Assembly (NCBI GenBank): GCA_947478455.1
Contig: CANJWR010000029.1
Coordinates: forward strand, 1-34,943
Reading direction: 5' to 3'
Source: Beijerinckiaceae bacterium
Lineage (GTDB): Bacteria; Pseudomonadota; Alphaproteobacteria; Rhizobiales; Beijerinckiaceae
DNA: 34,943 nt
A program made the position numbers and the translations under genes. The notes beneath the pieces are model-generated. The model was not told the DNA's origin. It saw only the letters and a program-made list of their open reading frames with translations, and ran no database searches. How positions within the stretch are numbered: position 1 is the first letter of the stretch; each line of letters begins with the position of its first letter. Below, in pieces: positions 1-34,943 of the stretch.

Positions 1-249
1 GAAGACGTGGAGCTTCAGGAAGCCCCACTGGTCAATTCGGCGACCGACAATCACTTCACGGGTGTCGTCGACCAGCGCATCTTCCTGGGCGACTTTGTTG
101 ACCTTGAGGTCAAGGTAGGCGACTACCTGCTGCGTTCGCGGGCCCATCCGTCGCTGCGGACCCCGATCGGCGACAAGATCAACATCCGGATGAACCCCGA
201 GAAGTGCGTCGCGATCGAAGACGATGGCGGCATTCGCTCGGCGGCCTGA
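1..249 (+). CDS. ABC transporter ATP-binding protein, C-terminal fragment (TOBE-type domain)
   Basis: The reading frame is open from the first base and stops at 249, so only the last 82 residues are present and the start lies left of the window. The fragment reads like the regulatory C-terminal TOBE_2 domain of PotA/FbpC-type ABC ATPases, with GVVDQRIFLGDFVDLEV and a later DKINIRMNPEKCVAIED. Walker motifs are outside the window. In this transporter class the ATPase works at the inner membrane with one or two permeases and a periplasmic binding protein. Two binding proteins of a fitting class follow downstream (1525 and 5021), so this is probably the ATPase of the same importer. The next gene begins 70 nt later on the same strand. 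Confidence 0.8.
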   Translation, partial: EDVELQEAPLVNSATDNHFTGVVDQRIFLGDFVDLEVKVGDYLLRSRAHPSLRTPIGDKINIRMNPEKCVAIEDDGGIRSAA

Positions 250-319: not shown

Positions 320-1441
320 ATGGCAAAAGACGCGATTGTATCGACAGAATTGGCGAAGAAGTTCGAGACCGAAAAAGAAACGCCCTACACGCGCTGGGTG
401 GCCAGCGAAGGTCTGGAGATCATTCCAGCCCTTTATGTGCGCAACCTCCGCACAGTCGAACTGAAGCCCTGGGCGCGCCGTGGCGGCAATGCCGTATTCG
501 TCAATCACGACGCATCGCGCACGTCCAACGACAGCTATGTGATGGAAATTCCGCCGGGCAAGAAGCTCGAGCCGCATCGCCAGCTGTACGAGGAAATGAT
601 CCTCATTCTCGACGGTCGCGGTTCGACGACGGTCTGGAACGACGAAGGCAAGCGCATCACCTTCGAATGGGGTCCGGGTTCGCTGTTCGCGATACCGATC
701 AACACCCTGCACCAGCACTTCAATGGCTCGGGCCGCGAGCCGGCGCGCTACATCGGCGTCACCAACGCGCCCCCGGTCGTCAACCTGTACGAAGATCTCG
801 ACTTCGTCTTCAACACGAAGCACGATTTCAAGAGCCGCTTCTCGGGCGAGCCGGATTACTTCGCCGCCAAGACCGAGCAGAAGGGCTTCCTGCTGCAGAC
901 CAACTTCGTGCCGGATGCGGTGAACCTGCCGCTGATCAGCGCCAAGGAGCGCGGCGCTGGCGGTGGCCATATCCGCTTCAACATGGCCAAGGGCTCGATG
1001 AACAGCCACATCTCGCAGTTCCCGGTCGGGACCTACAAGAAGGGCCACGCTCATGGTCCGGGCGCATACGTCATCATCCTGTCGGGCGAAGGCTATTCGC
1101 TCATGTGGCCGGAAGGCGAAGAGCCCAAGCGCTACGACTGGGAAGTCGGCACGCTCATCGTTCCGCCGAACATGTGGTTCCACCAGCACTTCAACACGGG
1201 CCCGACGCCTGCGCGCTATCTGGCGTTCAAGCACGAGGTCGTGTCGATCCGTAACGCTCAGGGCGTGCCGAAGGCCTGGATCAGCCGTCGCATCGGCGGC
1301 GATCAGGTGGATTACGCCGATGAAAAGCCGTTGGTGCGTTCGCTCTTCTCGTCGGAACTGTCCAAACATGGCCTGACGCCGAGGATGGACGATGCCTATG
1401 CGACCGAACTCGAGACGCTGCCGCCCAAGGCCGTCGCCTGA
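320..1441 (+). CDS. Double-cupin protein, paralogue 1
   Basis: A 373-aa protein with two cupin domains, roughly residues 60-150 and 220-305, similar in size and layout to bicupin dioxygenases such as gentisate 1,2-dioxygenase. Close relatives are, as I recall, often annotated as cupin proteins or 'ethanolamine ammonia lyase-activating protein'; neither name proves a function. The C-terminal domain has His243-Ala-His245 and His288, a three-histidine metal site lacking the usual cupin glutamate, as in the gentisate dioxygenase family. The N-terminal domain keeps His86, Glu92 and His131 but has Gln88 where the second histidine is expected. The start is set by AAGGAG at 308-313. It has no signal peptide, so it is cytosolic. 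Two paralogues lie downstream (2642, 3790). An oxygenase or isomerase acting on an imported acid is inferred from context only. Confidence 0.85.
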   Translation: MAKDAIVSTELAKKFETEKETPYTRWVASEGLEIIPALYVRNLRTVELKPWARRGGNAVFVNHDASRTSNDSYVMEIPPGKKLEPHRQLYEEMILILDGRGSTTVWNDEGKRITFEWGPGSLFAIPINTLHQHFNGSGREPARYIGVTNAPPVVNLYEDLDFVFNTKHDFKSRFSGEPDYFAAKTEQKGFLLQTNFVPDAVNLPLISAKERGAGGGHIRFNMAKGSMNSHISQFPVGTYKKGHAHGPGAYVIILSGEGYSLMWPEGEEPKRYDWEVGTLIVPPNMWFHQHFNTGPTPARYLAFKHEVVSIRNAQGVPKAWISRRIGGDQVDYADEKPLVRSLFSSELSKHGLTPRMDDAYATELETLPPKAVA

Positions 1442-1460
1442 TCTGGTCCTATGACTACCG

Positions 1461-1489
1461 GGGGAACAGCGCATCGGGCGCTGTTCCCC
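1461..1489 (+). other. Strong intercistronic hairpin
   Basis: A perfect 12-bp inverted repeat (1461-1472 pairing with 1478-1489) with a 5-nt loop lies in the 83-nt gap between bicupin 1 and the first binding protein. No run of T follows directly, so it is a weak candidate for an intrinsic terminator. It is more likely an mRNA-stabilising or processing element that sets cupin and binding-protein levels separately. Confidence 0.7.
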
Positions 1490-1524
1490 TGTCGTTTAAA
1501 CAATCGCTTTTCGGGGAGACGCAC

Positions 1525-2607
1525 ATGACCGGACGAACCTCCAATCATCTCGCCGCCCTTGGATTTGGGCGCATTGCGCTGGGCGCCGCTTTTGCGCTGG
1601 GACTCTCGCTCGCCACGCCTGCAGTTCACGCGCAGACGATCCAGGAACTCGCCAATTATGCCGGCGCGGATCGAACCGAAAAGCTGATTGCCGGAGCCAA
1701 GAAAGAAGGCTCGGTCATGCTTTATACGTCGCTGCAGATCGAGGACGTGAATGCGCTCAGCTCCGTCTTCCAGCAGAAATACGGCGTGAAGCTCAACGTC
1801 TGGCGCGGCAGCGCCGAGGATGTGCGCCAGCGCGCCATTGTCGAGACCCGCGCCAATCGCAACGAGGTCGATATTTTCGAACTCGGCGGACGCGAAATGG
1901 AATCGTTGCATCGCGAGAAGCTTCTCTCGGCGATCAAGTCTCCGGTTTTTGCCGATCTGGTTCCGCAAGCGCTTTCGCCCCATGGCGAATGGACCGGCAC
2001 GCGCCTCAATGTCATCACCGGCGCCTACAACACCAATCTTATCAAGAAAGAAGATGTGCCCAAGACTTATGAGGATCTGCTTGATCCCAAGTACAAGGGC
2101 AAGCTTGGAATCGAGGCCGAGGACGAGGACTGGCTCGCCGCCATCGTCACCGAGATGGGCGAGGAAAAAGGCCTGAAACTCTTCCGCGATATTGTCGCCA
2201 AGAACGGCATGTCGATCCGCAAGGGCCACACACTGCTGGTCAATCTCGTGGCCTCCGGCGAAGTCCCGATGGCGCTCACAGTTTACACATACAAGGCCTC
2301 GCAGCTGATCACTGGCGGAGCCCCCATTGCGTTGCTTGGCCTTCAGCCGGCAGTCGCGCGCGTCAACGGCATTGGGGTCGCCGCCAAGCCGGCGCATCCG
2401 CATGCGGCCATTCTGTTTTACGATTTCGTTCTCGGTCAGGAAGGCCAGTCGATCCTGCAAAAGCGCGAGTTTACCCCGACCAACCGTAAGGTCGAGGAAT
2501 TGCCCAAGGAGCTGCGCGTCACCTTCAGCGATCTGCCGAAGCTGCTCGACGAAAAGGACAAGTGGTCGAAAATCTACCGCGATATTTTCGCCGCTCGCGC
2601 CCGCTGA
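1525..2607 (+). CDS. ABC transporter periplasmic substrate-binding protein, paralogue 1
   Basis: A 360-aa protein with a Sec-type signal peptide: a hydrophobic stretch at about residues 15-33, with cleavage likely after AVHA at 36. The mature part starts as extracellular binding proteins of the iron/putrescine-type class 1 cluster do, with a conserved LIAGAKKEG and later LWRGS/VWRGS-like and YNTNLI segments. It would bind its ligand in the periplasm and deliver it to a permease not seen here. The paired tyrosines typical of ferric-binding proteins are not evident (VYTYKAS instead), so an organic ligand is as likely as iron. GGGGAGA at 1514-1520 is the ribosome site. It is clearly paralogous to the protein at 5021 along its whole length, and bicupin 2 follows 34 nt later. 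Confidence 0.88.
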   Translation: MTGRTSNHLAALGFGRIALGAAFALGLSLATPAVHAQTIQELANYAGADRTEKLIAGAKKEGSVMLYTSLQIEDVNALSSVFQQKYGVKLNVWRGSAEDVRQRAIVETRANRNEVDIFELGGREMESLHREKLLSAIKSPVFADLVPQALSPHGEWTGTRLNVITGAYNTNLIKKEDVPKTYEDLLDPKYKGKLGIEAEDEDWLAAIVTEMGEEKGLKLFRDIVAKNGMSIRKGHTLLVNLVASGEVPMALTVYTYKASQLITGGAPIALLGLQPAVARVNGIGVAAKPAHPHAAILFYDFVLGQEGQSILQKREFTPTNRKVEELPKELRVTFSDLPKLLDEKDKWSKIYRDIFAARAR

Positions 2608-2641
2608 ACCAAATCAAAAACGATCGACTGGAGGAATATTG

Positions 2642-3754
2642 ATGGCAAAGGGCCCGCTCGCTTCTGAAGACCTCGCGAAGAAGTTCGCTGTCGAGAAGAT
2701 CACGCCATATATGCGCTATGTGGCCGACGAAGGGCTCGACATCATCAGCGCGCATTATGTGCGCAACCTGAAGACGGTAGATCTGAAGCCGTGGGCGCGT
2801 CGCGGCGGCGCGGGCGTCTTCATCAATCACGAGGCCTCGCAGGTCACCAACGATTGCTACGTTTGCGAAATTCCGCCGGGCAAGGCGCTCAATCCGCAGC
2901 GTCAGATGTTCGAGGAAATGGTGCTCGTTCTCACCGGGCGCGGGTCGACGACGGTCTGGAACAAGGCCGGCAAGAGCATTACGTTCGAGTGGAAGGCGGG
3001 CGCGATTTTCGCCATTCCGCTGAACTGCATGCACCAGCATTTCAACGGTTCGGGGCAGGAACCGGCGCGTTTCGTGTCTGTGACGAACTGCCCTTCCGTG
3101 CTCAATCTGTACGACGATCTCGACTTCCTGTTCGGCCTCGATTTCGACTTCAAGCGCCGCTTCACCGGCGAGCCGGATTTCTTCTCCGCCAAGGGCGAGC
3201 AGAAGGGCTTCATGCTCACCACGAACTTCGTGCCGGACGCGGTCAATCTTCCGCTCATCGAGGCGAAGGAGCGTGGCGCGGGCGGTGGGCACATTCGCTT
3301 CAACATGGCCAAGGGCTCCATCGCCAGCCACATTTCGCAATTTCCGGTCGGCACCTACAAAAAGGCCCATGCGCACGATCCTGGCGCGCATGTCATCATC
3401 CTGTCGGGCGAGGGCTATTCGCTCATGTGGGCCGAAGGCGAGGAGCCCAAGCGCTACGATTGGGAACTCGGGACGCTCATCGTGCCGCCCAATGGCGTTT
3501 TCCATCAGCATTTCAACACCGGCCCGACGCCGGCGCGCTATCTGGCGTTCAAACATCCGGGCGTGCGCAACGAGCAGGGCGTTCCGCTGGCGTGGATCAG
3601 CCGCCGTCTCGGGGGCAACCAGATCGACTACGCGGACGAAACCGAGCTGGTTCGCAAGACATTCGCCGAAGCGCTCGGCAAACACGGCCTGAAGCCGAAA
3701 ATGGATTCCTTCTACGAAGCCGAATTGCCGACGCTGCCGCCCAAGCGCGCCTGA
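2642..3754 (+). CDS. Double-cupin protein, paralogue 2
   Basis: A 370-aa protein that aligns without gaps to bicupins 1 and 3 over at least the first 290 residues. The C-terminal cupin keeps His243, His245 and His288 and has an extra His250. In the N-terminal cupin both motif-1 histidines are glutamine (Gln86, Gln88); Glu92 and His131 remain. The N-terminal site is therefore probably empty or altered, while the C-terminal site should bind a metal such as Fe(II). GGAGGA at 2630-2635 with a 6-nt spacer fixes the ATG at 2642 and rules out the much longer upstream extension of this frame. It has no signal peptide. It sits 34 nt after binding protein 1 and 35 nt before bicupin 3, so all are probably on one transcript. 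Confidence 0.85.
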   Translation: MAKGPLASEDLAKKFAVEKITPYMRYVADEGLDIISAHYVRNLKTVDLKPWARRGGAGVFINHEASQVTNDCYVCEIPPGKALNPQRQMFEEMVLVLTGRGSTTVWNKAGKSITFEWKAGAIFAIPLNCMHQHFNGSGQEPARFVSVTNCPSVLNLYDDLDFLFGLDFDFKRRFTGEPDFFSAKGEQKGFMLTTNFVPDAVNLPLIEAKERGAGGGHIRFNMAKGSIASHISQFPVGTYKKAHAHDPGAHVIILSGEGYSLMWAEGEEPKRYDWELGTLIVPPNGVFHQHFNTGPTPARYLAFKHPGVRNEQGVPLAWISRRLGGNQIDYADETELVRKTFAEALGKHGLKPKMDSFYEAELPTLPPKRA

Positions 3755-3789
3755 CGTCTGCCGATCTTAAACCTGAACCGGAGAGCCTG

Positions 3790-4908
3790 ATGGCCAAGAC
3801 CGCAATTGTGTCCGACGAACTTGCCAAGAAGTTCGAGACCGAAAAGAACACCCCCTATGGCCGTTGGGTCGCCGAGCAGGGCCTCGACATCATCAGCGCG
3901 CAATATGTTCCGAACCTGCGCACCGTCGAACTGAAGCCGTGGGCCCGTCGCGGCGGTCGCGGCGTGTTCATCAACCATGACGCCTCGCGCACTTCGAACG
4001 ATTGCTACGTTTGCGAAATCCCCAACGGCGGCAAGCTCGCCCCGCAGCGCCAGCTGTATGAGGAAATGGTCCTCATTCTTGACGGTCGCGGTTCGACGAC
4101 GATCTGGAACGACGCCGGCCAGCGCATGACGTTCGAATGGAAGGCGGGCGCCATGTTCGCGATTCCGCTGAACACCTGGTACCAGCACTTCAACGGTTCA
4201 GGGCAGGAACCGGCGCGTTATGTCGGCGTCACCTTCCTGCCGTGGGTGCTGAACCTGTATGACGACCCGGACTTCGTGTTCGGCACGGCTTATGATTTCA
4301 AGAACCGCTTCAACGGCGAGCCTGACTACTTCTCCGCCAAGGGCGACCAGAAGGGCTTCCTGCTCACCACCAACTTCGTGCCGGACGCAGTGAACCTGCC
4401 GCTGATCACCGCCAAGGAGCGCGGCGCCGGCGGCGGTCACATCCGCTTCAACATGGCCAAGGGTTCGATGGCGAGCCATATTTCGCAGTTCCCGGTCGGC
4501 ACCTACAAGAAGGGTCACATGCATGGCCCGGGCGCGCACGTGATCCTGCTAAGTGGCGAAGGCTATTCGCTGATGTGGCCGGAGGGCGACGAGCCCAAGC
4601 GCTACGACTGGCAGCCCGGCACGCTGATCGTGCCGCCGAACGCCTTCTTCCACCAGCATTTCAACACTGGCCCGACGCCGGCGCGCTATCTTGCGTTCAA
4701 GCATTCCTCGCCGCGCAACGCGCAGGGCGTGCCGCTTTCGTGGATCAGCCGTCGTCTCGGCGGCAACCAGATCGACTATGCTGATGAGACCGATATGCAG
4801 CGCAAGATGTTCGCCGACGCGCTCGCCAAACACGGCCTCGCACCGCGCATGGACGAAGCCTACAAGTCAGAACTCGAAACCCTGCCGCCCAAGCGCGCAG
4901 AGGTCTGA
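3790..4908 (+). CDS. Double-cupin protein, paralogue 3
   Basis: A 372-aa protein, closer by eye to bicupin 1 at its N-terminus (AIVSDELAKKFETEK) but with the QRQ motif of bicupin 2. The C-terminal cupin is intact (His243, His245, His250, His288). The N-terminal cupin has Gln86, Gln88 and Tyr131, so all three histidines are lost and only Glu92 remains. This is the most degenerate of the three N-terminal domains. The ATG at 3790 is preceded by CCGGAGAG at 3779-3786. Ends of the three proteins are alike (TLPPK). Its function is not established. A heteromer with the other paralogues, or a shift of substrate range, is possible but only inferred. Confidence 0.85.
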   Translation: MAKTAIVSDELAKKFETEKNTPYGRWVAEQGLDIISAQYVPNLRTVELKPWARRGGRGVFINHDASRTSNDCYVCEIPNGGKLAPQRQLYEEMVLILDGRGSTTIWNDAGQRMTFEWKAGAMFAIPLNTWYQHFNGSGQEPARYVGVTFLPWVLNLYDDPDFVFGTAYDFKNRFNGEPDYFSAKGDQKGFLLTTNFVPDAVNLPLITAKERGAGGGHIRFNMAKGSMASHISQFPVGTYKKGHMHGPGAHVILLSGEGYSLMWPEGDEPKRYDWQPGTLIVPPNAFFHQHFNTGPTPARYLAFKHSSPRNAQGVPLSWISRRLGGNQIDYADETDMQRKMFADALAKHGLAPRMDEAYKSELETLPPKRAEV

Positions 4909-4952
4909 TTTTTTTTAGTCGCGCGCCAGCCGGCGTGCGCAAACGAGTTTGA

Positions 4953-4973
4953 CCCTGCGGGATGCCCGCAGGG
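4953..4973 (+). other. Intercistronic hairpin before binding protein 2
   Basis: CCCTGCGGG (4953-4961) pairs perfectly with CCCGCAGGG (4965-4973) around a 3-nt loop. It lies in the 112-nt gap between bicupin 3 and the second binding protein. A run of eight T (4910-4917) lies upstream of the hairpin rather than after it, so this is not a standard terminator. The position mirrors the hairpin at 1461-1489, also just ahead of a binding-protein gene. Confidence 0.6.
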
Positions 4974-5020
4974 GCCGATCGGTCGCCACAAGACCGACGG
5001 TGTCAGAGAGGGAGAAGGCT

Positions 5021-6079
5021 ATGGTCGCGCATTTCCTGTCGCGTGATGTCGCACGTCGTGCGTTGCTTGTTTCTGCCGCAGCGGGCGCTCTGGCGCTGTC
5101 GGTTTTCGGTGCGCAGGCGCAGACAGCCGCCGATATTGCAGTCCTGGCCGGCCCCGACCGCATGGACAGGATTGTTGCGGGCGCGAAAAAAGAGGGCGGA
5201 CTGACGCTCTATTCCTCCGGCACAGTTGAGGATATGGGCGGCATCATTGCCGGCTTTGAAAAGAAATACGGCCTCAAGGTCAAACTCTGGCGCGGAAGTT
5301 CAGAAGATATTCGTCAGCGCGCCGTCACGGAACGCCGGGCCAATCGCTTCGACGTTGACGTGATCGAGACCGCCGGCCCCGACATTGAGGCCATGCACCG
5401 CGAGGAACTGCTCCAGAAAATCGTTTCGCCGACGCTTGCCGACATGATGCCGCAGGCCTTGCGCCCGCACGGCGAATGGGTGACGGGCCGCCTGAGCATT
5501 TTCACCATCGGCTACAACACGAATCTGGTGAAGGATGCGCCGAAATCCTACGAGGATTTTCTTGACCCGAAATGGAAGGGCAAGCTCGGCATCGAGGCTG
5601 AGGACGCCAACTGGTTCATGGCCGTCGCGGGCGTGATGGGCGAGGAAAAGGCCATCGACCTGTTCAGGAAGATCGTGGCCACGAACGGCGTTTCAGTCCG
5701 CAAGGGCCACACGCTTCTGGCCAATATGGTGGCCTCGGGCGAAGTGCCGTTGGCCCTGACGCTCTACAATTACAAGGCCGAGCAACTGGCCGCCTCCGGC
5801 GCGCCTCTGAAGCCTGTCTATCTGCAGCCGCTCGTGGCGCTGCCGACCGGCGTGGCGGTGGCCCGCAAGGCCCCCAACCCCCATGCGGCTGTGCTCTTCT
5901 GGGAATTTTTCCTCACCGACGCCCAGCATATTCTGATTTCGCAGGACAATGTGCCCACCAATCGCAAAATCAAGGAGCCTCCGCCGGGCCTCGTGCTGAC
6001 CGATCCGGTAAAGCTGCTCGACGAGGGCGACCGCTGGGTGAAAATCTACAAGGATATCTTTGCCCCGAAGGCGCGCTAG
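5021..6079 (+). CDS. ABC transporter periplasmic substrate-binding protein, paralogue 2
   Basis: A 352-aa protein starting at the ATG after GAGAGGGAGAAGG (5005-5016). The frame stays open upstream to 4949, but that extension has no signal-peptide logic and no ribosome site. The start chosen gives a signal peptide with arginines at 11-12, a hydrophobic core and likely cleavage after AQA at 33. The mature protein is a paralogue of the 1525 gene: it shares IVAGAKKEG, LWRGSSEDIRQRAV, YNTNLV, KGKLGIEAED and IRKGHTLL-like segments. Two importers or one importer with two ligand specificities are both possible. A stand-alone cupin follows after 78 nt. Confidence 0.88.
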   Translation: MVAHFLSRDVARRALLVSAAAGALALSVFGAQAQTAADIAVLAGPDRMDRIVAGAKKEGGLTLYSSGTVEDMGGIIAGFEKKYGLKVKLWRGSSEDIRQRAVTERRANRFDVDVIETAGPDIEAMHREELLQKIVSPTLADMMPQALRPHGEWVTGRLSIFTIGYNTNLVKDAPKSYEDFLDPKWKGKLGIEAEDANWFMAVAGVMGEEKAIDLFRKIVATNGVSVRKGHTLLANMVASGEVPLALTLYNYKAEQLAASGAPLKPVYLQPLVALPTGVAVARKAPNPHAAVLFWEFFLTDAQHILISQDNVPTNRKIKEPPPGLVLTDPVKLLDEGDRWVKIYKDIFAPKAR

Positions 6080-6157
6080 CCGTTCGGAATCAGTAGGCAA
6101 GCGCGCTGCGCCTGTGCTATCAAACGTCCAAATCCGCCAGTCAGATGTGAGACACCA

Positions 6158-6712
6158 ATGGGAATTATCGATCCGCGCGAGCAGATGCGCGCACATGCGC
6201 AAACGCAATATGTCGATTTCTATTCCGAGGCCCTCAAGGCTTCCGAGCAGTTCCGCAAGGAATACGACGGTCGCGTGAACGTGGTGAAGTCTGCCGACAT
6301 GCCGCTGGAGCGTTCGCCCAATGGCCTGATCAAGCACATCATCCACGAGAAGATGGACACCAAGGAGTGCTGCCTCGACATCTACATGCAGTTCCTGGCT
6401 CCCGGCGCCGCCTCCGGCAAGCATCGCCATCTGTCGGAAGAAGTCTTCTACGTCGTTGAAGGCTCGGGCTACGACCTGCACTGGGACGTGAAGTTCGACT
6501 GTCAGGACGTGATGGAATTCGAATGGGAAACCGAGCCACAGAAGTTCGAATGGACGCAGGGCGACTTCGTCTACATTCCGCCCTATTGCGCCCATAAGCA
6601 CTTCAACTCGGACCCGAACAACGAAGCGCGCATCATCGTCATCAACAGCCGGATCGTGAAGCCCATGGGCTTTGACTGGTTCGAGCAGATCGAGCGCGCC
6701 GAAGGGTTCTGA
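6158..6712 (+). CDS. Single-domain cupin protein
   Basis: A 184-aa protein with one complete cupin metal site: His89-x-His91, Glu95 and His146 (motif 2, PPYCAHKHFN). It is the only protein of the cluster with all four canonical ligands. About 80 residues precede the barrel and are not recognised. It has no signal peptide. The ribosome site before the ATG is weak (TGAGACACCA). It ends the cupin cluster, with a clear terminator about 30 nt downstream. A dioxygenase or isomerase role beside the bicupins is plausible, but the substrate is unknown. Confidence 0.82.
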   Translation: MGIIDPREQMRAHAQTQYVDFYSEALKASEQFRKEYDGRVNVVKSADMPLERSPNGLIKHIIHEKMDTKECCLDIYMQFLAPGAASGKHRHLSEEVFYVVEGSGYDLHWDVKFDCQDVMEFEWETEPQKFEWTQGDFVYIPPYCAHKHFNSDPNNEARIIVINSRIVKPMGFDWFEQIERAEGF

Positions 6713-6790: not shown

Positions 6791-7207
6791 ATGTGCGGCG
6801 AAATCGAGGAAGAAGGCGGGCCGAGTTCTTTCGAGGACGCGCTCTACAATCGTTTTTTGGTTCATACGCGGAGCCTTCTGGCGAAACAGAAGACCGCGCA
6901 GGCGGCCAATCGCGATCCGATGTTCGATCAACTCGACAAGCTTTTCGCCGACGCCCTGTCGCGAGCCACGCGCGATTCGGAAGAAGCCGACGAAAACGAT
7001 CGCTATCAGATTATGGCCATGCAGCCGCTCGTCTTCGCGCGGCTCGCGGGCTTCATGGCGGCCCACTGCTCGTTGCAGGAAGACCCGATGCGCAAGGTGA
7101 TGGAAGCTCTCATGCACGGCTATGCGGAGGCCGAGCGCATCGAGAACGATCACGGCCACGATCATGACCACGACGGCGCTCACGGCCATTACGGCCATCA
7201 GCATTAG
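6791..7207 (+). CDS. Small protein with histidine-rich C-terminal tail
   Basis: A 138-aa protein of unrecognised family. CAGGAGA (6777-6783) places the start at 6791; the longer in-frame version would begin inside the terminator. The body is acidic and helical in appearance, with an LYNRFLVHTRSLLAKQ segment and a later QPLVFARLAGFMAAH segment. The last 18 residues contain eight histidines alternating with Asp, Gly and Ala, a pattern typical of Ni/Zn/Co/Fe-binding tails in metallochaperones and transporters. It has no signal peptide or membrane segment. Its position right after a metal-dependent cupin cluster suggests metal storage or delivery, which is inference only. It is probably transcribed partly by read-through, since I see no strong promoter in the short gap. 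Confidence 0.7.
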   Translation: MCGEIEEEGGPSSFEDALYNRFLVHTRSLLAKQKTAQAANRDPMFDQLDKLFADALSRATRDSEEADENDRYQIMAMQPLVFARLAGFMAAHCSLQEDPMRKVMEALMHGYAEAERIENDHGHDHDHDGAHGHYGHQH

Positions 7208-7279: not shown

Positions 7280-8266
7280 CTAGATCTTGAACGCTTCCAG
7301 CGTCTCCGGCGCAAACAATTCTTCCGGCTTCAGCAGGCGCTTCGACAGGCCCTGCTCGTAGTGATAGCGCAGGAATGTCTCGAGCGTCTTGATGTTCGGC
7401 TCGTAGCCATAGGCCCAATAGTCCTTGCCCATCAGATCGACGGCTTCTTCCGCATGGGCGTTGAACCACGGCAACATGCCTTTTAGCGCAGCGGTTTCCA
7501 ACACATCGTGATAGGTGCGGCGCTGGGCTTCCTGAAACGCCTTGAACAGCGACTGGGCGATCCACTTGTTGGCTTCGTAAACCTCGCGGCGGATCGCCAC
7601 CGTGTGCATGATCGGGAACATGCCGGTCTTCTTGTAATAATCCTTCTCGATATCGACGAAGTTCGGGAACAGGCGCGTCACCTTCTTGCCATCGTAGGTT
7701 GAAGGCTTGCGGGCCGTGTAGAAGGCGTCCACCTCGCCATCGACCAGCATCTTCGCCAGCGTGCGATCCTCGGGGATCGACGACACCTTGATGTTGGGCG
7801 GTAGATCGAGCTTCTGCTTTTCGGGGCGGCCGGGCTCTTCCTCGCCGCCTGTGAGATATTGCACGCTGTCCACCGGCACGCCGTAATGATCCGACAGAAT
7901 GCCGCGAATCCACACAGGCGCGGTCATCTGATATTCCGGCACGCCGATCTTGCGGCCGATCAGGTCCTTCGGCTCGCGAATGCCGGATTTCGCGCTGAGA
8001 TAGATGCAGGAATGCCGGAAGAAGCGTGATGGAAACACTGGAATCGCCACGAAGGGGCGCGTGTCCTTGAATAGCGACACCGTGTAGGACGACAGCGACA
8101 TCTCGGCCACATCGAATTCGCGATGGCGCACCATGCGGAAGAATGTCTCTTCCACCGGCAGATCGAGATAGTTGAGGTCGATGCCGTCGGGCTGGACGCT
8201 GCCGTCCTGCAGGGCGCGGGTACGGTCGTAGTTCCAGCACGCAAGCGTCAGTTTCAACCTGGACAT
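7280..8266 (-). CDS. 4,5-dihydroxyphthalate decarboxylase-like protein
   Basis: A 328-aa protein with no signal peptide. It has a type-2 periplasmic-binding-protein fold signature but resembles the cytosolic 4,5-dihydroxyphthalate decarboxylases (Pht5 family), with ACWNYDRTRAL at the N-terminus, the RHREFDVAEMSLSSY segment and AYGYEPN near the C-terminus. That enzyme removes a carboxyl group from 4,5-dihydroxyphthalate to give protocatechuate. Members of this family are often mislabelled as ABC binding proteins, and the missing signal peptide argues against that here. AGGGAGA sits 4 nt before the ATG. It is last in the minus-strand set of ferredoxin, IclR and reductase (44 nt after the reductase). 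The real substrate may be another vicinal diol carboxylate. Confidence 0.8.
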   Translation of the reverse strand: MSRLKLTLACWNYDRTRALQDGSVQPDGIDLNYLDLPVEETFFRMVRHREFDVAEMSLSSYTVSLFKDTRPFVAIPVFPSRFFRHSCIYLSAKSGIREPKDLIGRKIGVPEYQMTAPVWIRGILSDHYGVPVDSVQYLTGGEEEPGRPEKQKLDLPPNIKVSSIPEDRTLAKMLVDGEVDAFYTARKPSTYDGKKVTRLFPNFVDIEKDYYKKTGMFPIMHTVAIRREVYEANKWIAQSLFKAFQEAQRRTYHDVLETAALKGMLPWFNAHAEEAVDLMGKDYWAYGYEPNIKTLETFLRYHYEQGLSKRLLKPEELFAPETLEAFKI

Positions 8267-8310: not shown

Positions 8311-9318
8311 TCAGAAGAACTGATCGAAATGCACTTGCGCGGGCGGCGTTTTATATTCGACGATCATTTTGGTAATGGCCTGCGCCATCATGGGCGGGCC
8401 AGCAAAATAGATTTCGCAGTCGCGGAGCTTCTCGCCGAGAAGTTCTTTTGCATAGTCGTGCACGAACCCAACCTTGCCGGTCCATGACGGATCGGCCTCG
8501 GGCATCGAGATCGCCGGGTGATAATGCAGGCGCGCTCCATAGCCGGGCAGGGTGCTCAGCAATGTTTCGTTGAATAGGTCGCGCGACGTGCGGCCGCCGT
8601 AGAAGAAATGAATCTGCTGTCCCGCCAGCTTCGGACTCGCGGTTGCGGCGCGCGCCAGCGACACCATCGGCGACAGGCCGGAACCACCGCCCAGCAGTAC
8701 GATGTCGCGCGGCGCATCCTCGCGCAGATAGGCCATGCCGTAGGGCCCATCGAGTCCGACTGTCTCGCCGGTTTTCAGATTGTCGAACAGTGCGCCCGTG
8801 CAGGCGCCGTTCGGCACGCGACGAATCTGGAAATGCCATTCCTCGCCGCTCGTCGTGACGTTGCACATCGAATAAGCGCGCGCGCCCTCGACTCCTGCCG
8901 CCGCAATCAGCCCGTACTGGCCGGGCAGAAACGGCTTCGGCGCTGCAAGCCTGAAACGGAATTCACGAATGTCGTGCGTGATGTCTTCGATCGCCGTCAG
9001 AGTTCCGACCGTTTTCGCCGGCGCGAAGTGGCTCTTGTAGTGATCGCGCAGATTCAGCTTGATCTTGCAGTCGGTCAGCGGCTTCGCCTGACATCCCAGA
9101 TAGCGCTTGCGCTGCAGGTCGCGCTCGCTCCAGCCCGGAGGATCCTTGCGCAGATGTTCGATCTCGCCTTCCAGCAGTTCGAACTTGCAATTGCCGCAGG
9201 AGCCGACGTTGCATTCATACGGGAAGCCAAGACCCTGACGCACGGCGGCGCGCATGATCGTGTCGTCCTCGGGGCAATCGAAAGCAGTCTGTGTCGCGGG
9301 GATCAAAATCTGGGGCAT
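8311..9318 (-). CDS. Ring-hydroxylating oxygenase reductase (2Fe-2S / FAD / NAD)
   Basis: A 335-aa flavoprotein reductase that passes electrons from NAD(P)H to a Rieske component. Residues 1-90 are a plant-type ferredoxin domain with Cys36, Cys41, Cys44 and Cys76. The FAD domain follows, with RAYSMCN. Then comes the nicotinamide domain, with LLGGGSGLSPM and EIYFAGPPMM, ending in an aromatic residue. Domain order matches BenC, NahAa and phenol hydroxylase reductases. The length is normal. No strong ribosome site is seen; the start is 30 nt after the IclR stop. Electron partners are probably the Rieske ferredoxin (10267) and the oxygenase (10770). Confidence 0.92.
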   Translation of the reverse strand: MPQILIPATQTAFDCPEDDTIMRAAVRQGLGFPYECNVGSCGNCKFELLEGEIEHLRKDPPGWSERDLQRKRYLGCQAKPLTDCKIKLNLRDHYKSHFAPAKTVGTLTAIEDITHDIREFRFRLAAPKPFLPGQYGLIAAAGVEGARAYSMCNVTTSGEEWHFQIRRVPNGACTGALFDNLKTGETVGLDGPYGMAYLREDAPRDIVLLGGGSGLSPMVSLARAATASPKLAGQQIHFFYGGRTSRDLFNETLLSTLPGYGARLHYHPAISMPEADPSWTGKVGFVHDYAKELLGEKLRDCEIYFAGPPMMAQAITKMIVEYKTPPAQVHFDQFF

Positions 9319-9348: not shown

Positions 9349-10215
9349 TCAGAGATTTGCCACGGACTTGTAGCCAAGGCGCGCAGAAATGATCGCTGCG
9401 GAGTTCACAACTTGCGGAGCGAAGGCGGCCAGCAATTCGTCCGGCAGCCTTTGCAATGGGCCCGCGACCCCGACCGCCGCCACCACCGCACCGGTGTCGT
9501 TGCGGATGGGCGCGGCCACAGAGCGCATGCCGAGTTCGCATTGCTCGTCCTCGCGCGCAAAACCGTTGATCCGCACCTGTTCGAGCGCTGCGCGAATATG
9601 CTTCGGATTTGTGTCGGTCTTGATGGTCCGGGGCTGGAACCCTTGCGCAAAAATCTCGTCGATGAACTCGGGCGACTGGAACGCCAGAATGGCGCGCCCC
9701 TCGGCCGTGCAGAAGGCAGGCTTGCGCGATCCGAGGTCGGCCCGCATGCGGATCGCGTGATTGCTCTCGAGGTTGAGCACATACATGATCTGGGCGCGGT
9801 CTAGGATCGCCAGATGCACCGTCTCGCCGGTCGCCTCGCGCAGGTCGAACATGATCTGGCGCGCTTCGGTCGAGACATTCATTCGCTGACGAACCAGCGC
9901 GCCGAGGCCGAACAGCGCAATGCCGAGCCGGTATTTCTCGTTGTCGCGGTTCTGCTCCAGCATCCCTTCGGAAACGAGAGTTGAGGCGAGCCGGTAAACC
10001 GTGCTCTTGGCGACGCCCAGCCGTTTGGCGAGGCTGGTGACGCCGATCTCAACCTCGCCTTCCGAAAAGGTCTTGAGCAGCCTTACCGCCATGGCGACGG
10101 ACGAAAGGCGCGTCGGCGCGGGGCGCTTGCCGCCCTGCTCGGAAGAACCGGACGCAATGGTCCGGCCAGCGGGGCTTTTGCCCGCGTCGATCTTCCCCTG
10201 CGCTCCGTTCTCCAT
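9349..10215 (-). CDS. IclR-family transcriptional regulator
   Basis: A 288-aa regulator. A low-complexity N-terminal extension (residues 1-35) precedes the winged helix-turn-helix (about 58-80, VTSLAKRLGVAKSTVYRLAS) and the IclR effector domain (about 100-275, with SEFIDEIF-like and ARxxGYAxxxxE-like segments, here GFAREDEQCELGMRSVAAPI). IclR proteins bind small acids in the C-terminal domain, and those next to aromatic pathways often act as activators. It is encoded inside the oxygenase electron-transfer operon, 51 nt after the ferredoxin, so it probably controls its own transcript and the divergent oxygenase through the half-sites at 10640-10664. Confidence 0.9.
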   Translation of the reverse strand: MENGAQGKIDAGKSPAGRTIASGSSEQGGKRPAPTRLSSVAMAVRLLKTFSEGEVEIGVTSLAKRLGVAKSTVYRLASTLVSEGMLEQNRDNEKYRLGIALFGLGALVRQRMNVSTEARQIMFDLREATGETVHLAILDRAQIMYVLNLESNHAIRMRADLGSRKPAFCTAEGRAILAFQSPEFIDEIFAQGFQPRTIKTDTNPKHIRAALEQVRINGFAREDEQCELGMRSVAAPIRNDTGAVVAAVGVAGPLQRLPDELLAAFAPQVVNSAAIISARLGYKSVANL

Positions 10216-10266: not shown

Positions 10267-10578
10267 CTAGGCTTCGATGAAGAGCGTGTCGCCCTCAATG
10301 ATCGCCTGATAGGTCTTCATCGGGATCATGCAGGGCGGATCCACAACTTCGCCGGTCTTGATGTTGAACGATCCATTGTGGAAATCGCACTCCACCACAT
10401 CGCCGTGGATCGGGCCTTCCGAGAGGGATCCCGGGCCGTGGCTGCAAATGTCGTCCATGACGTAAAAGGCGCCGTTCAGATTGAAAACGGCCAGTACCAG
10501 ATCGCCCTTTTCGACCTTGATGGCTGTGCCTTCGTCAACTTCGGAAGTCTTGCACAGTTCGATCTTCTGGCCGCTCAT
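10267..10578 (-). CDS. Rieske-type ferredoxin
   Basis: A 103-aa soluble electron carrier. The Rieske [2Fe-2S] ligands are Cys45-x-His47 and Cys64-x2-His67, within DICSHGPG and ECDFHNGSF. Its size matches BphF/CarAc/NahAb-type ferredoxins of three-component dioxygenases. GAGGAG lies 10 nt before the ATG. It is first in the minus-strand operon and divergent from the oxygenase gene. It would carry electrons from the reductase (8311) to the oxygenase (10770). Confidence 0.93.
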   Translation of the reverse strand: MSGQKIELCKTSEVDEGTAIKVEKGDLVLAVFNLNGAFYVMDDICSHGPGSLSEGPIHGDVVECDFHNGSFNIKTGEVVDPPCMIPMKTYQAIIEGDTLFIEA

Positions 10579-10769: not shown

Positions 10770-12059
10770 ATGATGCTCAAGAAAGAACAGAACGACTACA
10801 TTACCCAGACCGGCCCAGGCACCCCCATGGGGAACCTGTTCCGCTGCTACTGGATGCCCGCCCTGCTCTCCGAAGAGCTGCCGGAACCCGATTGCCCACC
10901 CGTTCGCGTCAAGCTTCTGTCTGAACGCCTGATCGCCTTCCGCGACACAGAAGGCCGTCTCGGCCTGATCGATGAGTTCTGCGCCCATCGCGGTCCCTCA
11001 CTGTGGTTCGGCCGTAACGAGGAATGCGGCCTGCGCTGCCCCTATCACGGCTGGAAGTTCGACGTGACCGGCCAGTGCGTGGACGTTCCGTCCGAACCCG
11101 CCGAGAGCGGTTACGCCAAGAAGATCAAGCTCAAGTCCTACCCGCTGATCGAAAAGGGCGGCGTTCTTTGGACTTACATGGGCGATCCCGAAAAGCAGCC
11201 GCCGGAGCCGGAATTCGAGTTCTGCACGGTTCCGCTCAACCAGACCTTCTCCAGCAAGCGTTTGCAGGAATGCAACTGGCTGCAGGCCATGGAAGGCGGC
11301 ATCGATTCGAGCCACGTCTCGTTCCTGCATCGCGGAGACCTGAACAACGATCCGCTGTTCAAGGGCGCTGCCGGCAACAAGTACAATCTGGGCGACATGG
11401 CGCCGGTATTCGAAGTCGTTGAATCGTCGGGCGGACTGCTGATCGGCGCGCGTCGCAATGCCGAGGACGACCAGTATTACTGGCGCATCACCCCCTGGGT
11501 CATGCCTTGCTACACGGGCGTGCCGCCGCGCGGCGACCATCCGCTGCACGGCCATTTCTGGGTTCCGATCGACGACGAAAACTGCTGGGCCTGGAGCTAC
11601 GACTATCACCCGACCCGCGCGCTGACCGATTCCGAAGTCGCCGCCATGCGCGACGGCAAGGGCGTTCACGTCAAGTATGTGCCCGGCACCTACATCCCGC
11701 TCGCCAACAAGACCAACGACTATCTGATGGATCGCGCCGCCCAGAAGGCCGGCCGCACCTTCAGCGGCGTCGAGGGCATCGGCATGCAGGACGCCTCGCT
11801 TCAGGAGAGCATGGGCCCGGTCTGCGATCGTACCCGTGAAAACCTCGTCGGCACCGACAACGGCATCATCATGGCCCGTCATCGCCTGATGCGCGCCGCG
11901 AAAGCGTTGGCCGATAAGGGCACGCAGCCTCCCGGCGTCGACGTTGAGCATCAGAAGGTGCGTCAGGCGGCTCTGCTGCTGAAACGCGACGTGCAGTACA
12001 AGGACGGCGCAAAGGAAGCGCTGATCGCCAAGAAGGGTGTCAGACAAACGTCCGTCTAG
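10770..12059 (+). CDS. Rieske non-haem iron oxygenase, alpha subunit (phthalate 4,5-dioxygenase-like)
   Basis: A 429-aa terminal oxygenase. The Rieske domain has Cys71-x-His73 and Cys90-x2-His93. The catalytic domain has the mononuclear iron motif Asp179-x2-His182-x4-His187. The N-terminus (GPGTPMGNLFRCYWMPALL) resembles the phthalate 4,5-dioxygenase branch, whose members are alpha-only and hydroxylate or dihydroxylate aromatic acids or O-demethylate them. No beta-subunit gene is nearby. The start is one of two consecutive ATG codons (10770, 10773) after TGGGAG. Phthalate dioxygenases usually take electrons directly from a single reductase, but here a separate Rieske ferredoxin is encoded divergently, giving an unusual three-component layout. 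The exact substrate cannot be read from the sequence. Confidence 0.9.
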   Translation: MMLKKEQNDYITQTGPGTPMGNLFRCYWMPALLSEELPEPDCPPVRVKLLSERLIAFRDTEGRLGLIDEFCAHRGPSLWFGRNEECGLRCPYHGWKFDVTGQCVDVPSEPAESGYAKKIKLKSYPLIEKGGVLWTYMGDPEKQPPEPEFEFCTVPLNQTFSSKRLQECNWLQAMEGGIDSSHVSFLHRGDLNNDPLFKGAAGNKYNLGDMAPVFEVVESSGGLLIGARRNAEDDQYYWRITPWVMPCYTGVPPRGDHPLHGHFWVPIDDENCWAWSYDYHPTRALTDSEVAAMRDGKGVHVKYVPGTYIPLANKTNDYLMDRAAQKAGRTFSGVEGIGMQDASLQESMGPVCDRTRENLVGTDNGIIMARHRLMRAAKALADKGTQPPGVDVEHQKVRQAALLLKRDVQYKDGAKEALIAKKGVRQTSV

Positions 12060-12089: not shown

Positions 12090-12608
12090 ATGCTGAGCGA
12101 ATCCGAACGTATGACCACAGCCCACGAGGCTGGTTTCCGGATCAAGGATCCGAATTCCAAACCGCGTGCGGTCGCCGTCATCGCCATCGACAAGGCGAGC
12201 GCCGCCATTGTCGACCAGATCTCGAAAGAGAAATGGCACGGAGCACATTTCTTCACGTCGCTCTCTTTCTCGACCGACAAGTCGCCGGCGGAAGGCGAGT
12301 CGCAGGCCATGAAAGCATGGCTCAACGATCTCGCCGGACGCGCGCTCAATCTCGTCGCCGAAGTCGAAAAGTCCGACTTCGTCGTCGTCATCACAGCAGC
12401 GGGAGAAGATGCGCGCGCGGTTTCGGTGATCTCCGACGCCTGCGCGATGTTCCACAAATCGTTGCTGGGTCTGGTGATTCCGCAGGACAATACGAGCGAG
12501 GCCGATATCGATCATTCGCTCGGCCATTTGCGTCCCCATACGCGCATGCTGGTTGTCGCGCATGGCATCGACTACATTGAAGTCATGCTGACGGCTTTGC
12601 GCGCATGA
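12090..12608 (+). CDS. Unrecognised 172-aa protein, possibly a degenerate FtsZ/tubulin-like Rossmann domain
   Basis: I do not recognise this family with confidence. The protein is soluble, with no signal peptide or membrane segments. Two stretches resemble FtsZ N-domain strands and helices in order: VAVIAIDKASAAIVDQI, followed by a short turn and HGAHFF, where FtsZ has its first glycine-rich loop; and DFVVVITAAGEDARAV, where FtsZ has its G-box. The glycines needed for GTP binding are absent, so GTPase activity is unlikely. It starts 30 nt after the oxygenase stop, with GGAG at 12077, and ends at a terminator, so it is co-transcribed with the oxygenase. The FtsZ likeness is a visual impression only. 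Confidence 0.65.
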   Translation: MLSESERMTTAHEAGFRIKDPNSKPRAVAVIAIDKASAAIVDQISKEKWHGAHFFTSLSFSTDKSPAEGESQAMKAWLNDLAGRALNLVAEVEKSDFVVVITAAGEDARAVSVISDACAMFHKSLLGLVIPQDNTSEADIDHSLGHLRPHTRMLVVAHGIDYIEVMLTALRA

Positions 12609-12687: not shown

Positions 12688-13233
12688 ATGAAGAAAGCCC
12701 GCCCGGTGCGGCGCTATATCGATAGCTCTCTGGTGGGAATGGCGGCCATCACAGCTGCCGCCGGCGCTGCCTGTTATTGGCTGGAAGGACGCGACGCCTT
12801 CTTCGACAGTTTCAACTCCGACTTCCAGAATTTCCTCGACATTGCGCCGAAAATGGCCGGCGCGCTTCTGCTCTCGGCCTATATTCAATTGCTGGTGCCA
12901 CGCGATATGGTGGCCCGCTATCTGGGTGACCAGAGCGGCCTGCGCGGCGTCTCGCTAGCCACGGGTCTGGGCTTCGGCACGCCGGGCGGCCCGTCCACAT
13001 CTTTCCCTGTCGTGGCGGCGCTCTATCATGCCGGTACGGGGCGCGCGCCGCTCGTGGCCTATCTTACCGCCTGGTCGACCATCGGCTTCAACCGCATTCT
13101 GACCTGGGAATTACCGCTGCTCGGCATGGAATTCGCCATCCTGCGGGAATTGGCGTCGTTGCCGCTTCCATTCGTTGCAGCCTTTGTGTCCAGCCTGCTG
13201 CCCATCGCGTTCAAGCAGAAGAAGCCGACCTGA
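12688..13233 (+). CDS. Permease half A (ArsP/DUF318-like membrane protein)
   Basis: A 181-aa membrane protein with four or five hydrophobic segments. The core segment has GTPGGPSTSFPVVAAL followed by AYLTAWSTIGFNRI. The same pattern recurs in the next gene, as expected for the two inverted halves of UPF0718/ArsP-type permeases, which are normally one polypeptide of about 300-400 aa. A TTG codon sits just before the ATG at 12688 and could be used instead; the ribosome site is weak. The stop overlaps the next start (TGATG). The transported substrate is unknown; organoarsenical export is known for some family members but nothing local supports it. Confidence 0.75.
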   Translation: MKKARPVRRYIDSSLVGMAAITAAAGAACYWLEGRDAFFDSFNSDFQNFLDIAPKMAGALLLSAYIQLLVPRDMVARYLGDQSGLRGVSLATGLGFGTPGGPSTSFPVVAALYHAGTGRAPLVAYLTAWSTIGFNRILTWELPLLGMEFAILRELASLPLPFVAAFVSSLLPIAFKQKKPT

Positions 13234-13745
13234 TGGCGGCCACGATTTTCGTTTACGCTCTCGCAGGTCTTGTCACGTGGCTCGCATGGCGGCGTCGCGA
13301 CGGCACTTACGAACAGGGGCTGCATCTTTCGTTCGAACGTTTGTTCGAGGTTCTGCCGCGCACGGCGATTGCACTCCTGCTGGCTGGCTTTATCGGGCGT
13401 CTGGTGCCCAGCGATCCGGTGGCCCGGATGATCGGTCCCGAAAGCGGGTTCGTCGGCATTCTGCTCGCCGGCATGGTGGGCGGCTTCATTCCTTCAGGGC
13501 CTATGGTGTCATTTCCTGTCGTCGTCGTTCTTGTGCAGTCCGGCGCAGGCTTTCCGCAGACCTGCGCATTCATCACTGGCTGGTCTGTGCTCGCGCTGCA
13601 TCGCGTGCTGATCTATGAAATCCCCCTGATGGGCTGGCAGTTCAGCCTCACGCGGCTGATCTCGGTCCTGCCGCTGCCGCCCCTTTGCGGATTGCTGGCA
13701 ATGGCGCTGACGTGGGTCTATCCGATCAAGTGGCCGCCGTGGTGA
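13233..13745 (+). CDS. Permease half B (ArsP/DUF318-like membrane protein)
   Basis: A 170-aa membrane protein with its own ATG overlapping the previous stop by one base, a sign of translational coupling. It has about five hydrophobic segments. The motif GGFIPSGPMVSFPVVVVL followed by AFITGWSVLALHRV repeats the layout of half A. The pair probably makes one transporter as a heterodimer. The first segment (TIFVYALAGLVTWLAW) is a credible membrane anchor, so this is not just a frameshifted tail of half A. A bidirectional terminator follows. Confidence 0.75.
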   Translation: MAATIFVYALAGLVTWLAWRRRDGTYEQGLHLSFERLFEVLPRTAIALLLAGFIGRLVPSDPVARMIGPESGFVGILLAGMVGGFIPSGPMVSFPVVVVLVQSGAGFPQTCAFITGWSVLALHRVLIYEIPLMGWQFSLTRLISVLPLPPLCGLLAMALTWVYPIKWPPW

Positions 13746-16076: not shown

Positions 16077-16087
16077 CTCGTCCTCCC

Positions 16088-16549
16088 TCAGGCCTGCGAA
16101 GCGCGCTTGACGGCGCGCAGAATGGAAACATGCGTGCCGCAGCGGCACTTGATGCCCGCCATGGCGTCGCGGATCTGCGCGTCGGTCGGCTTAGGTGTAT
16201 GTTCAAGCAGCGCCGCTCCGGTCATCAGCCAGCCGTTGAGGCAATAGCCGCATTGCGGAACCTGTTCGGCGATATAGGCTTCCTGCAGCTTGTGCGGCTT
16301 GCCGTCCTTGCCGATACCGGCAAGCGTCGTAACCTTGCTGGCGCCGACGGAATCAACCGTCGTGATGCAGGAGCGAACCGGCTCGCCGTTGATCCAAACC
16401 GTGCAGGCGCCGCACTGGGCGAGGCCGCATCCGAAGCGCGGATTTTTCAGTCCGAGATCGTCGCGCAACGCATAGAGCAGCGGCATATCCGGATCTGCTT
16501 CAATCGTATGCGCCTTGCCATCGACATTCAGCTCGATGCGTGTGGCCAC
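16088..16549 (-). CDS. Molybdopterin hydroxylase small [2Fe-2S] subunit (isoquinoline 1-oxidoreductase alpha type)
   Basis: A 153-aa iron-sulfur protein if started at the GTG at 16549, which has GGAGGA just before it. An ATG at 16561 is also in frame but lies upstream of that ribosome site. The plant-type cluster ligands are Cys41, Cys46, Cys49 and Cys61; the second cluster ligands are Cys100, Cys103, Cys135 and Cys137 (QCGYCLNG and CRCGTH). These two clusters carry electrons away from the molybdenum site in the large subunit at 13815. It has no signal peptide, so export would depend on the Tat signal of its partner. Confidence 0.9.
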   Translation of the reverse strand: MATRIELNVDGKAHTIEADPDMPLLYALRDDLGLKNPRFGCGLAQCGACTVWINGEPVRSCITTVDSVGASKVTTLAGIGKDGKPHKLQEAYIAEQVPQCGYCLNGWLMTGAALLEHTPKPTDAQIRDAMAGIKCRCGTHVSILRAVKRASQA

Positions 16550-16696
16550 GGGTTCCTCCATCAAATTTCTTGAGAGCCATATGCTCGTTGCGCGCGCGCC
16601 AGTCGACGCAGGCGACGACGGACACTATGCGACAGAATGGACCTGCGCCAGAGGGTCGCAGGCCGCCCTCGGGGAAATATTTATGCAGGCGATTTT

Positions 16697-26343: not shown

Positions 26344-26353
26344 GGGAGTCTCC

Positions 26354-26908: not shown

Positions 26909-26948
26909 GATCGAATCCAGACTGAAGTGGAATACAGAAAGAGAAGAA

Positions 26949-26975
26949 CGCGCGTCCTGCCGGGCAGGACGCGCG
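26949..26975 (-). other. Hairpin between atpE and atpF'
   Basis: A perfect 12-bp stem (26949-26960 with 26964-26975) with a 3-nt loop sits 7 nt past the atpE stop in the 73-nt gap. It is followed on the minus strand by TTCTTCTC, not a clean T run. It is well placed to protect the atpE message or cause partial termination, which would help make the high copy number of subunit c. Confidence 0.7.
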
Positions 26976-26981
26976 AGAAGA

Positions 26982-27209: not shown

Positions 27210-27265
27210 TTTAAACTCCTTCAGGTGGTGTGTTTGGGTCCGACTAGCTGTTGTTCAAATATTTA

Positions 27266-34275: not shown

Positions 34276-34943
<668 letters not shown>

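Follow-up and report, generated by a model that had tools for sequence, protein, structure and literature searches.

An EutA-family ATPase as the most constant partner of duplicated bicupins in a Beijerinckiaceae gene row and the loci compared with it

Which protein do three closely related two-domain cupins (bicupins) work with, when their genes alternate with those of two importer binding proteins? This question is raised by the contig CANJWR010000029.1 of a Beijerinckiaceae bacterium (assembly GCA_947478455.1; 4.60 Mb in 317 contigs), which was analysed as one complete contig of 34,943 nucleotides, here called the window. The initial annotation had described the row bicupin, solute-binding protein (SBP), bicupin, bicupin, SBP, cupin on one strand behind an ATP-binding cassette (ABC) ATPase, and open reading frames (ORFs) and Pfam matches confirm it. 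The genes of the row, including those found on a second contig of the same genome (C17), are as follows:

contig C17: ABC permease (Pfam BPD_transp_1, in two stretches)
contig C17: rest of the ABC ATPase gene (Pfam ABC_tran, TOBE_2)
1..249, plus strand: ABC importer ATPase, C-terminal 82 residues (67% identity to the end of the L107 ATPase)
320..1441, plus strand: bicupin 1, 373 amino acids (Pfam Cupin_2)
1525..2607, plus strand: SBP1, solute-binding protein, 360 amino acids (Pfam SBP_bac_6)
2642..3754, plus strand: bicupin 2, 370 amino acids (Pfam Cupin_2)
3790..4908, plus strand: bicupin 3, 372 amino acids (Cupin_2; second paralogue, in many genomes of the genus)
5021..6079, plus strand: SBP2, 352 amino acids, a paralogue of SBP1
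6158..6712, plus strand: single-domain cupin, 184 amino acids (Cupin_2; ligand pattern KHRH...E...H by eye)

The left edge of the window cuts the ABC ATPase gene, leaving its last 82 residues inside. The window's start shares an exact 149-base overlap with the end of C17, which carries, in order, a gene for an EutA-family ATPase, the ABC permease and an ABC ATPase fragment. As the contig starts inside the ATPase gene, the EutA-family gene and the permease lie just beyond the window's edge. The row is unbroken in the relative L112, which reads EutA (divergent), EutA, permease, ATPase, bicupin, SBP, bicupin, SBP, decarboxylase and further genes. The best explanation is that the window contains the downstream portion of one operon that starts on C17 with the EutA-family ATPase and runs on to the single-domain cupin and a small His-tailed protein. 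The row is not due to chance: a close bicupin (E 1e-110 or better) was found in 48 of 51 genomes of the genus, and named relatives have parts of the same row.

To compare gene company, 79 named loci were found by similarity to the window's bicupins in Alpha-, Beta- and Gammaproteobacteria and Actinobacteria, with mycobacteria and streptomycetes represented; this choice biases the set towards near relatives, and loci from one genus are not independent. Gene families were assigned with our own combination of ORF calling and BLAST. Single members of the EutA, Rieske, ATPase, permease, CobW, PanB-like, HpcH, TPP, HIBDH-like and aldolase clusters were checked with Pfam, while the cluster names TctC, TctA, MFS, porin, RND, chromate transporter, ADH, PIP, LigJ-like and Xdh are our reading of sequence or annotation. 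Trees were of the quick or fasttree type. Neighbours were counted in the 33 well-flanked loci, with about 10 kb on either side; the other 46 of the 79 had a short flank and were set aside.

An EutA-family gene is present in 32 of the 33 well-flanked loci (the exception is L161) and in 55 of the 79 overall. The other genes are less constant: in the well-flanked set, Rieske oxygenases occur in 21 loci, single cupins in 19, SBPs in 18, decarboxylases in 16 and TctC-like proteins in 14. The distance from a bicupin to EutA is at most 1 kb in 19/33 loci and at most 5 kb in 27/33, compared with 10/33 and 17/33 for SBPs (found in 40/79 loci overall). Copy numbers of bicupins and EutA are weakly correlated (rho 0.47, P 0.006), those of bicupins and SBPs are not (Spearman rho -0.07, P 0.69). 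In the loci compared, the most constant bicupin partner is the EutA-family ATPase, not the SBP.

EutA is the reactivating factor of B12-dependent ethanolamine ammonia-lyase; EutB was counted as well. Among the 51 genomes of the genus, 50 carry the EutA family over the cut-off, with several copies per genome, and five carry EutB. In an even draw of 337 Alphaproteobacteria, nine genomes have the bicupin (E 1e-60) and eight the EutA family (E 1e-40); all eight are among the nine, and the ninth genome is 70% complete (P 9e-14 for the overlap, with the window's own genome left out and relatedness ignored). EutB occurs in 23 of the 337, and none of these is among the eight; that the three class searches covered identical genomes is taken from their equal numbers and equal handles. 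Two of the 15 genomes reached via the named loci have EutB. Since EutB is missing from the EutA-family genomes of the draw, the name "ethanolamine ammonia-lyase reactivating factor" is misleading here. At least one database record of a cupin-linked EutA gives the EutA name, and most carrier genomes here are without EutB; a plasmid copy in P. zundukense is annotated as ethanolamine ammonia-lyase reactivating factor EutA, and one further plasmid example is unannotated. A role of the cupin-linked genes in ethanolamine use was rejected, as EutB is mostly absent from their genomes.

Starting from EutA rather than from bicupins, we examined 17 further EutA genes of the genus, hand-picked from the listed matches and hence not a random sample. 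Ten abut a bicupin and three abut two single cupins. An EutA-family gene adjoining two single-domain cupins, resembling a split bicupin, was seen at G000:C7:799-3609 (L214) and in L223, L225 and L234. In the EutA tree, the cupin-linked genes form clades that we labelled M, S, C and L. Three eut-type EutA genes (L236-L238) adjoin EutB in all three cases and have no cupin neighbour; two of them form the outgroup of the tree and the third a very long branch beside it. In the other 132 stretches searched, and beside the cupin-linked genes, no EutB was found, a statement that rests on the L239 and L242 queries.

The EutA-family proteins are recognisable members of their Pfam family. PF06277 extends over nearly the whole protein in the four cluster members searched (E 2e-106 to 1e-118), and the best NCBIfam scores of these four, 298-331 bits, lie under the EutA equivalog cut-off of 598 bits (at most about 55% of it). 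ATPase-type motifs are conserved in the EutA-family proteins of the loci. The predicted structure of one long form (EutA-L, from L123; predicted local distance difference test score, pLDDT, 81 overall) gave partial fold matches to Ppx/GppA, 2-hydroxyacyl-CoA dehydratase activators, PilM, MreB, EutJ and a sugar kinase, with template modelling (TM) scores to the query of 0.24-0.32 among the matches listed. Judged by this model, the partner is an ASKHA-fold ATPase.

In the long forms, H-x-H and DHDHD-like letters occur in a segment at the N-terminus, and the C-terminal tail is mostly His-rich; the EutA tail in the window's genome holds 21 His among its last 54 residues. Among 1096 called genes of at least 100 amino acids, 40 encode ten or more His within the final 45 residues; 39 of these are EutA and one is the small His-tailed protein. 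With pLDDT below 50 in the modelled tails, the His-rich tails on most long-form EutA are probably disordered. We also observed, in three genomes of the genus, an EutA-family gene with a His-rich N-terminus that has a uvrC-like gene (by eye) on one side and formate dehydrogenase genes on the other (L229:6737-8332, L230:6773-8356 and L231:6241-7833), which hints at a molybdenum-enzyme client. The formate dehydrogenase scored over the cut-off of TIGR01591 in L230 and was recognised by eye in L229 and L231.

The binding proteins, which the initial annotation had placed at the centre of a duplicated bicupin-SBP unit, bear out part of that idea. SBP1 and SBP2 share 54-55% identity and both match Pfam SBP_bac_6/1/8/11. 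Both gene families are duplicated in groups that run across species: bicupins 1, 2 and 3 fall in separate tree groups, each common to several species, as are the SBP groups S1, S2 and S3. S1 follows bicupin 1 and S2 follows bicupin 3 wherever the upstream gene is visible. As a general unit, the pair does not stand. S3 directly follows bicupin 3 in L192, so that bicupin 3 precedes either of two SBP groups; bicupin 2, whose group is confined to the window, L107 and L168 among the rows examined, is not paired with an SBP. The pair does recur (an SBP in 18 of the 33 well-flanked loci, within 1 kb in 10), but 15 of the 33 lack an SBP altogether, and these locus counts led us to reject a conserved bicupin-SBP unit. 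The suggestion that each import specificity is matched to a dedicated cupin is not supported, given up to five SBPs per bicupin, uncorrelated copy numbers and the unpaired bicupin 2. Trees of the two families, which had been proposed as a check on co-duplication, resolve several groups and do not decide the order of duplication; because the deep nodes of the bicupin tree are weak, a partial co-duplication may still have occurred. Both families are strongly expanded in the window's genome, which has 14 long bicupin-family matches and 62 SBP-family matches.

The closest solved relatives of SBP1 are of the FbpA/FutA type. In the alignment with FutA1, the second Tyr of the Fe(III)-binding Tyr-Tyr dyad is replaced by Lys257 (Y256-K257 in SBP1), and across the aligned SBPs of the loci, K or M mostly comes after the conserved Tyr (among the 40 commonest variants). 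Ferric iron import is hence unlikely, and with the second Tyr missing an organic ligand fits better than iron.

The three bicupins are close paralogues; bicupin 2 has 73% and bicupin 3 has 78% identity to bicupin 1. They had been called alignable without gaps, which is nearly so: the ends differ and there is one gap of two residues. The AlphaFold model of bicupin 1 (mean pLDDT 91) has two cupin barrels. H243 is conserved in 158 of 159 bicupins, H245 in 156, H288 in 159 and H290 in 158; by the cupin motifs, we take these residues for the metal ligands of the C-terminal barrel. Main-clade proteins have His or Tyr in place of the usual Glu of this barrel. Their N-terminal barrel mostly reads Q-R-Q at the motif-1 His but largely retains H131 and H133, and a His occupies position 88 in clades M and S. 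The near-invariant C-terminal His and the loss of the N-terminal motif-1 His make a single metal site in the C-terminal barrel likely, and a second, N-terminal site may exist. From the ligand pattern and the gene company, we infer that the bicupin acts in aromatic-acid catabolism, either as an oxygenase of the Fe(II) type or by cleaving C-C bonds. Membership of the gentisate or aminosalicylate dioxygenases themselves was rejected, as the scores are far under the cut-offs.

The gene company in question lies downstream of the single-domain cupin, whose family is found in 42 of the 79 named loci:

6791..7207, plus strand: small protein with a His-rich C-terminal tail
7280..8266, minus strand: 4,5-dihydroxyphthalate decarboxylase homologue (9jp7, E 4e-85, full length)
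8311..9318, minus strand: Fer2-FAD-NAD reductase (closest NCBIfam model BenC, score under cut-off)
9349..10215, minus strand: IclR-family regulator
10267..10578, minus strand: Rieske ferredoxin (PF00355; HcaC-like, under cut-off)
10770..12059, plus strand: Rieske oxygenase alpha subunit (closest solved structure isophthalate dioxygenase, 9ina, E 5e-146)
12090..12608, plus strand: 172-residue protein (c10), no family match
12688..13745, plus strand: two ArsP_1-like half permeases (c23; PF03773 found in the cluster's L121 member)

The Rieske oxygenase is identical to isophthalate dioxygenase (IPDO) at 151 of 301 counted positions. According to the IPDO study (PMC12445078), R234 and H257 bind the two carboxylates, and the double variant V178A/F249H also takes phthalate and terephthalate. 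Ten active-site letters given there land on the expected residues at an offset of 23, which checks our residue mapping. R234 and H257 correspond to R239 and H262 in the window, each kept in 43 of 44 Rieske-family rows (a set that includes near-copies and a few rows not adjoining a bicupin). F249, on the ortho face, corresponds to Arg254, and Arg is found in 39 of the 44. A conserved Arg at this position suggests a substrate with one more carboxylate, and together the Rieske oxygenase and the decarboxylase homologue suggest the catabolism of an aromatic polycarboxylate. Trimellitate as the substrate is a guess from structure.

Several neighbours deserve mention beside these genes. In L116, L158, L189, L193, L196 and L203, a CobW/G3E GTPase gene stands beside the Rieske ferredoxin inside the cluster and hints at metal handling; the CobW identity comes from PF02492 in L116, and of the CobW matches in 11 loci seven are partial, at the locus edge. 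The 172-residue protein occurs in 16 of the 33 well-flanked loci, mostly downstream of the Rieske oxygenase, and by eye resembles part of an FtsZ-like Rossmann domain. The small His-tailed protein, with no match in Pfam or NCBIfam, is found in nine of the 79 named loci. Adjoining the cluster, at 13815-16561, are by eye the large and small subunit genes of a xanthine-dehydrogenase-type molybdenum hydroxylase; similar genes occur in L120, and the large subunit in L121 and L122. The regions 25864-28021 and 32871-34943 look like housekeeping DNA (by eye, ATP synthase F0 genes, recA and the start of alaS).

We propose that the bicupins form the core of a system served by its own EutA-family ATPase, in the catabolism of an aromatic polycarboxylate; the case for and against this whole reading seems to us evenly balanced. 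The importer, with its variable SBPs, would take up a polycarboxylated aromatic acid. The IPDO-like Rieske oxygenase would hydroxylate it, for example trimellitate at C4/C5 with loss of one carboxylate to give 4,5-dihydroxyphthalate, from which the decarboxylase homologue would remove CO2, and the bicupin would act on the catechol-type product. By analogy with EutA, with a bicupin rather than ethanolamine ammonia-lyase as its client, the ATPase would draw on ATP to load its own bicupin with metal, or to remove or renew that metal, and the His tails of the ATPase would hold it. Duplicates of bicupins and SBPs would widen the range of acids handled. The operon, the association of EutA with bicupins, the lack of EutB in most of the genomes, the conserved His and ATPase-type motifs and the His tails are observed; the loading or reactivation of the metal, the oxygenase role and the substrate are all steps that we infer. 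If the pairing is functional, it would give reactivating ATPases a new class of client and offer a direct handle on how the metal sites of cupins are loaded or rescued. It also indicates an uncharted aromatic-acid pathway in Proteobacteria and Actinobacteria. The cluster had been put forward as undescribed, and this holds for the literature searched: no paper on an EutA-bicupin or EutA-Rieske system was recognised, most subscription journals and bioRxiv being outside the search.

A number of observations weigh against this proposal. The oxygenase role of the bicupin draws on ligand pattern and gene company, and its best fold matches are oxalate decarboxylases (TM about 0.47). The NCBIfam scores are 19 bits against a cut-off of 442 for gentisate dioxygenase (bicupin 1 only) and 22-29 bits against 650 for aminosalicylate dioxygenase. 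The Rieske oxygenase is missing from 12 and the decarboxylase from 17 of the 33 well-flanked loci, and no dihydrodiol dehydrogenase (iphB-type) was recognised among the window genes read, the library search having taken in only some of the ORFs. His tails are absent from all six actinobacterial EutA partners seen and from the shorter EutA types, so the tail is not essential. Among the 17 EutA genes above, three without a cupin adjoin formate dehydrogenase genes and one a TctA-like gene. Nine stretches of the window's own genome, some of them short, were taken at distant bicupin-family genes (35-43% identity to bicupin 1), and two of them have EutA (L057 and L063).

Matched clades speak for the proposal: for same-strand neighbours no more than 500 bases apart, the clade of the EutA predicts that of the bicupin or cupin in 48 of 50 cases, compared with a mean of 14.8 and a maximum of 29 in 10,000 shuffles. 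Joint inheritance of adjacent genes contributes to this match; the clades were set after seeing the trees, near-duplicate loci were excluded, and two L155 EutA outside the four clades were not counted. A phylum-wide draw of 299 genomes proved a poor test, as nearly all its EutA matches were short fragments (E above 1e-10), and the class draw with strict limits was used instead. Near full-length EutA was found in five of the 299: the window's own genome, G017 (beside EutB) and three at E 3e-166 or better, two of which were checked and have it beside EutB. The four other than the window's own look like eut type and fall outside the bicupin count.

What else could the EutA-family protein be doing? 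It may be a pathway enzyme in its own right, an ASKHA kinase, hydrolase or ligase that activates an intermediate for the bicupin, with no reactivation involved. The fold matches to Ppx/GppA phosphatases, a sugar kinase and 2-hydroxyacyl-CoA dehydratase activators are what one might expect of such an enzyme, its gene recurs as constantly as that of a catalytic partner should, and certain EutA genes have no adjoining cupin. However, EutA accompanies varied gene content, single-cupin pairs included, its His-rich tails suit metal handling, and Pfam assigns it to a reactivase family, so that we consider a pathway enzyme unlikely, although it is the most serious competitor. It is less probable still that the bicupins are binding, isomerase or decarboxylase proteins of the oxalate-decarboxylase kind, with EutA serving some other enzyme of the cluster, such as the Rieske oxygenase. 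The fold matches are indeed led by oxalate decarboxylases and seed storage bicupins, gentisate dioxygenase appearing only from rank 29, and the main-clade N-terminal barrel lacks its motif-1 His; yet the C-terminal His are near invariant, and EutA is present where the Rieske oxygenase is missing (absent from 1/33 and 12/33 loci, respectively).

We find it hard to retain the view of the initial annotation, in which duplicated bicupin-SBP units each join an import specificity to a cupin enzyme. The order of S1 after bicupin 1 and S2 after bicupin 3 in relatives, and the ten loci with an SBP within 1 kb, agree with it. The 15 loci without any SBP, the unmatched copy numbers and bicupin 2 speak the other way, as do the TctC-like or MFS-like importers (names by reading) found elsewhere, which together make it very improbable. 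Hardest of all to credit is that EutA is a leftover or moved ethanolamine-utilisation gene that still reactivates ethanolamine ammonia-lyase. In its favour are a PF06277 match that spans almost the full protein and the name under which the P. zundukense copy is annotated, but the scores stay under the EutA cut-off, and none of the eight EutA-family genomes of the class draw is in the EutB set, which already refutes the idea there. That refutation is limited to EutB-free genomes, and five of the 51 genomes of the genus carry EutB.

A broader reading can be sketched, tentatively and with rather less confidence than the proposal itself. The EutA family might be a wide class of ATP-driven chaperones that load or reactivate the metal of cupin enzymes, perhaps also molybdenum or Rieske enzymes, with His tails as metal stores and ethanolamine ammonia-lyase as one type of client. 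On this view, trimellitate and other benzene polycarboxylates would be handled by an undescribed route in which the window's bicupins are the oxygenases.

Among known systems, IPDO of Comamonas testosteroni KF1 (9INA; PMC12445078) has both carboxylate anchors in common with the window's Rieske oxygenase, which differs in standing beside a BenC-like reductase and a ferredoxin. The decarboxylase homologue matches 4,5-dihydroxyphthalate decarboxylase (9jp7) over its full length and keeps different gene company. Binding proteins of FbpA/FutA/PhnS-type importers belong to the same sequence family as the SBPs described here, in which the second Tyr of the dyad is replaced and which form their own groups S1-S3.

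The gentisate, salicylate and 5-aminosalicylate 1,2-dioxygenases are likewise bicupins, with two cupin domains, one of which has a conserved His cluster. Three His serve as metal ligands in gentisate dioxygenases, and one such enzyme (3bu7) gives both a weak sequence match and a fold match to the bicupins. Unlike these ring-cleaving enzymes, the bicupins studied here have their near-invariant His in the C-terminal barrel and a partner ATPase. That partner resembles canonical EutA in belonging to the same Pfam family over about 470 residues, in its ATPase-type motifs and in the position of its gene near that of a presumed client metalloprotein. It differs from canonical EutA in having a cupin rather than EutB as its neighbour, in forming clades apart from the EutB-linked EutA and, in most long forms, in its His-rich N- and C-terminal segments.

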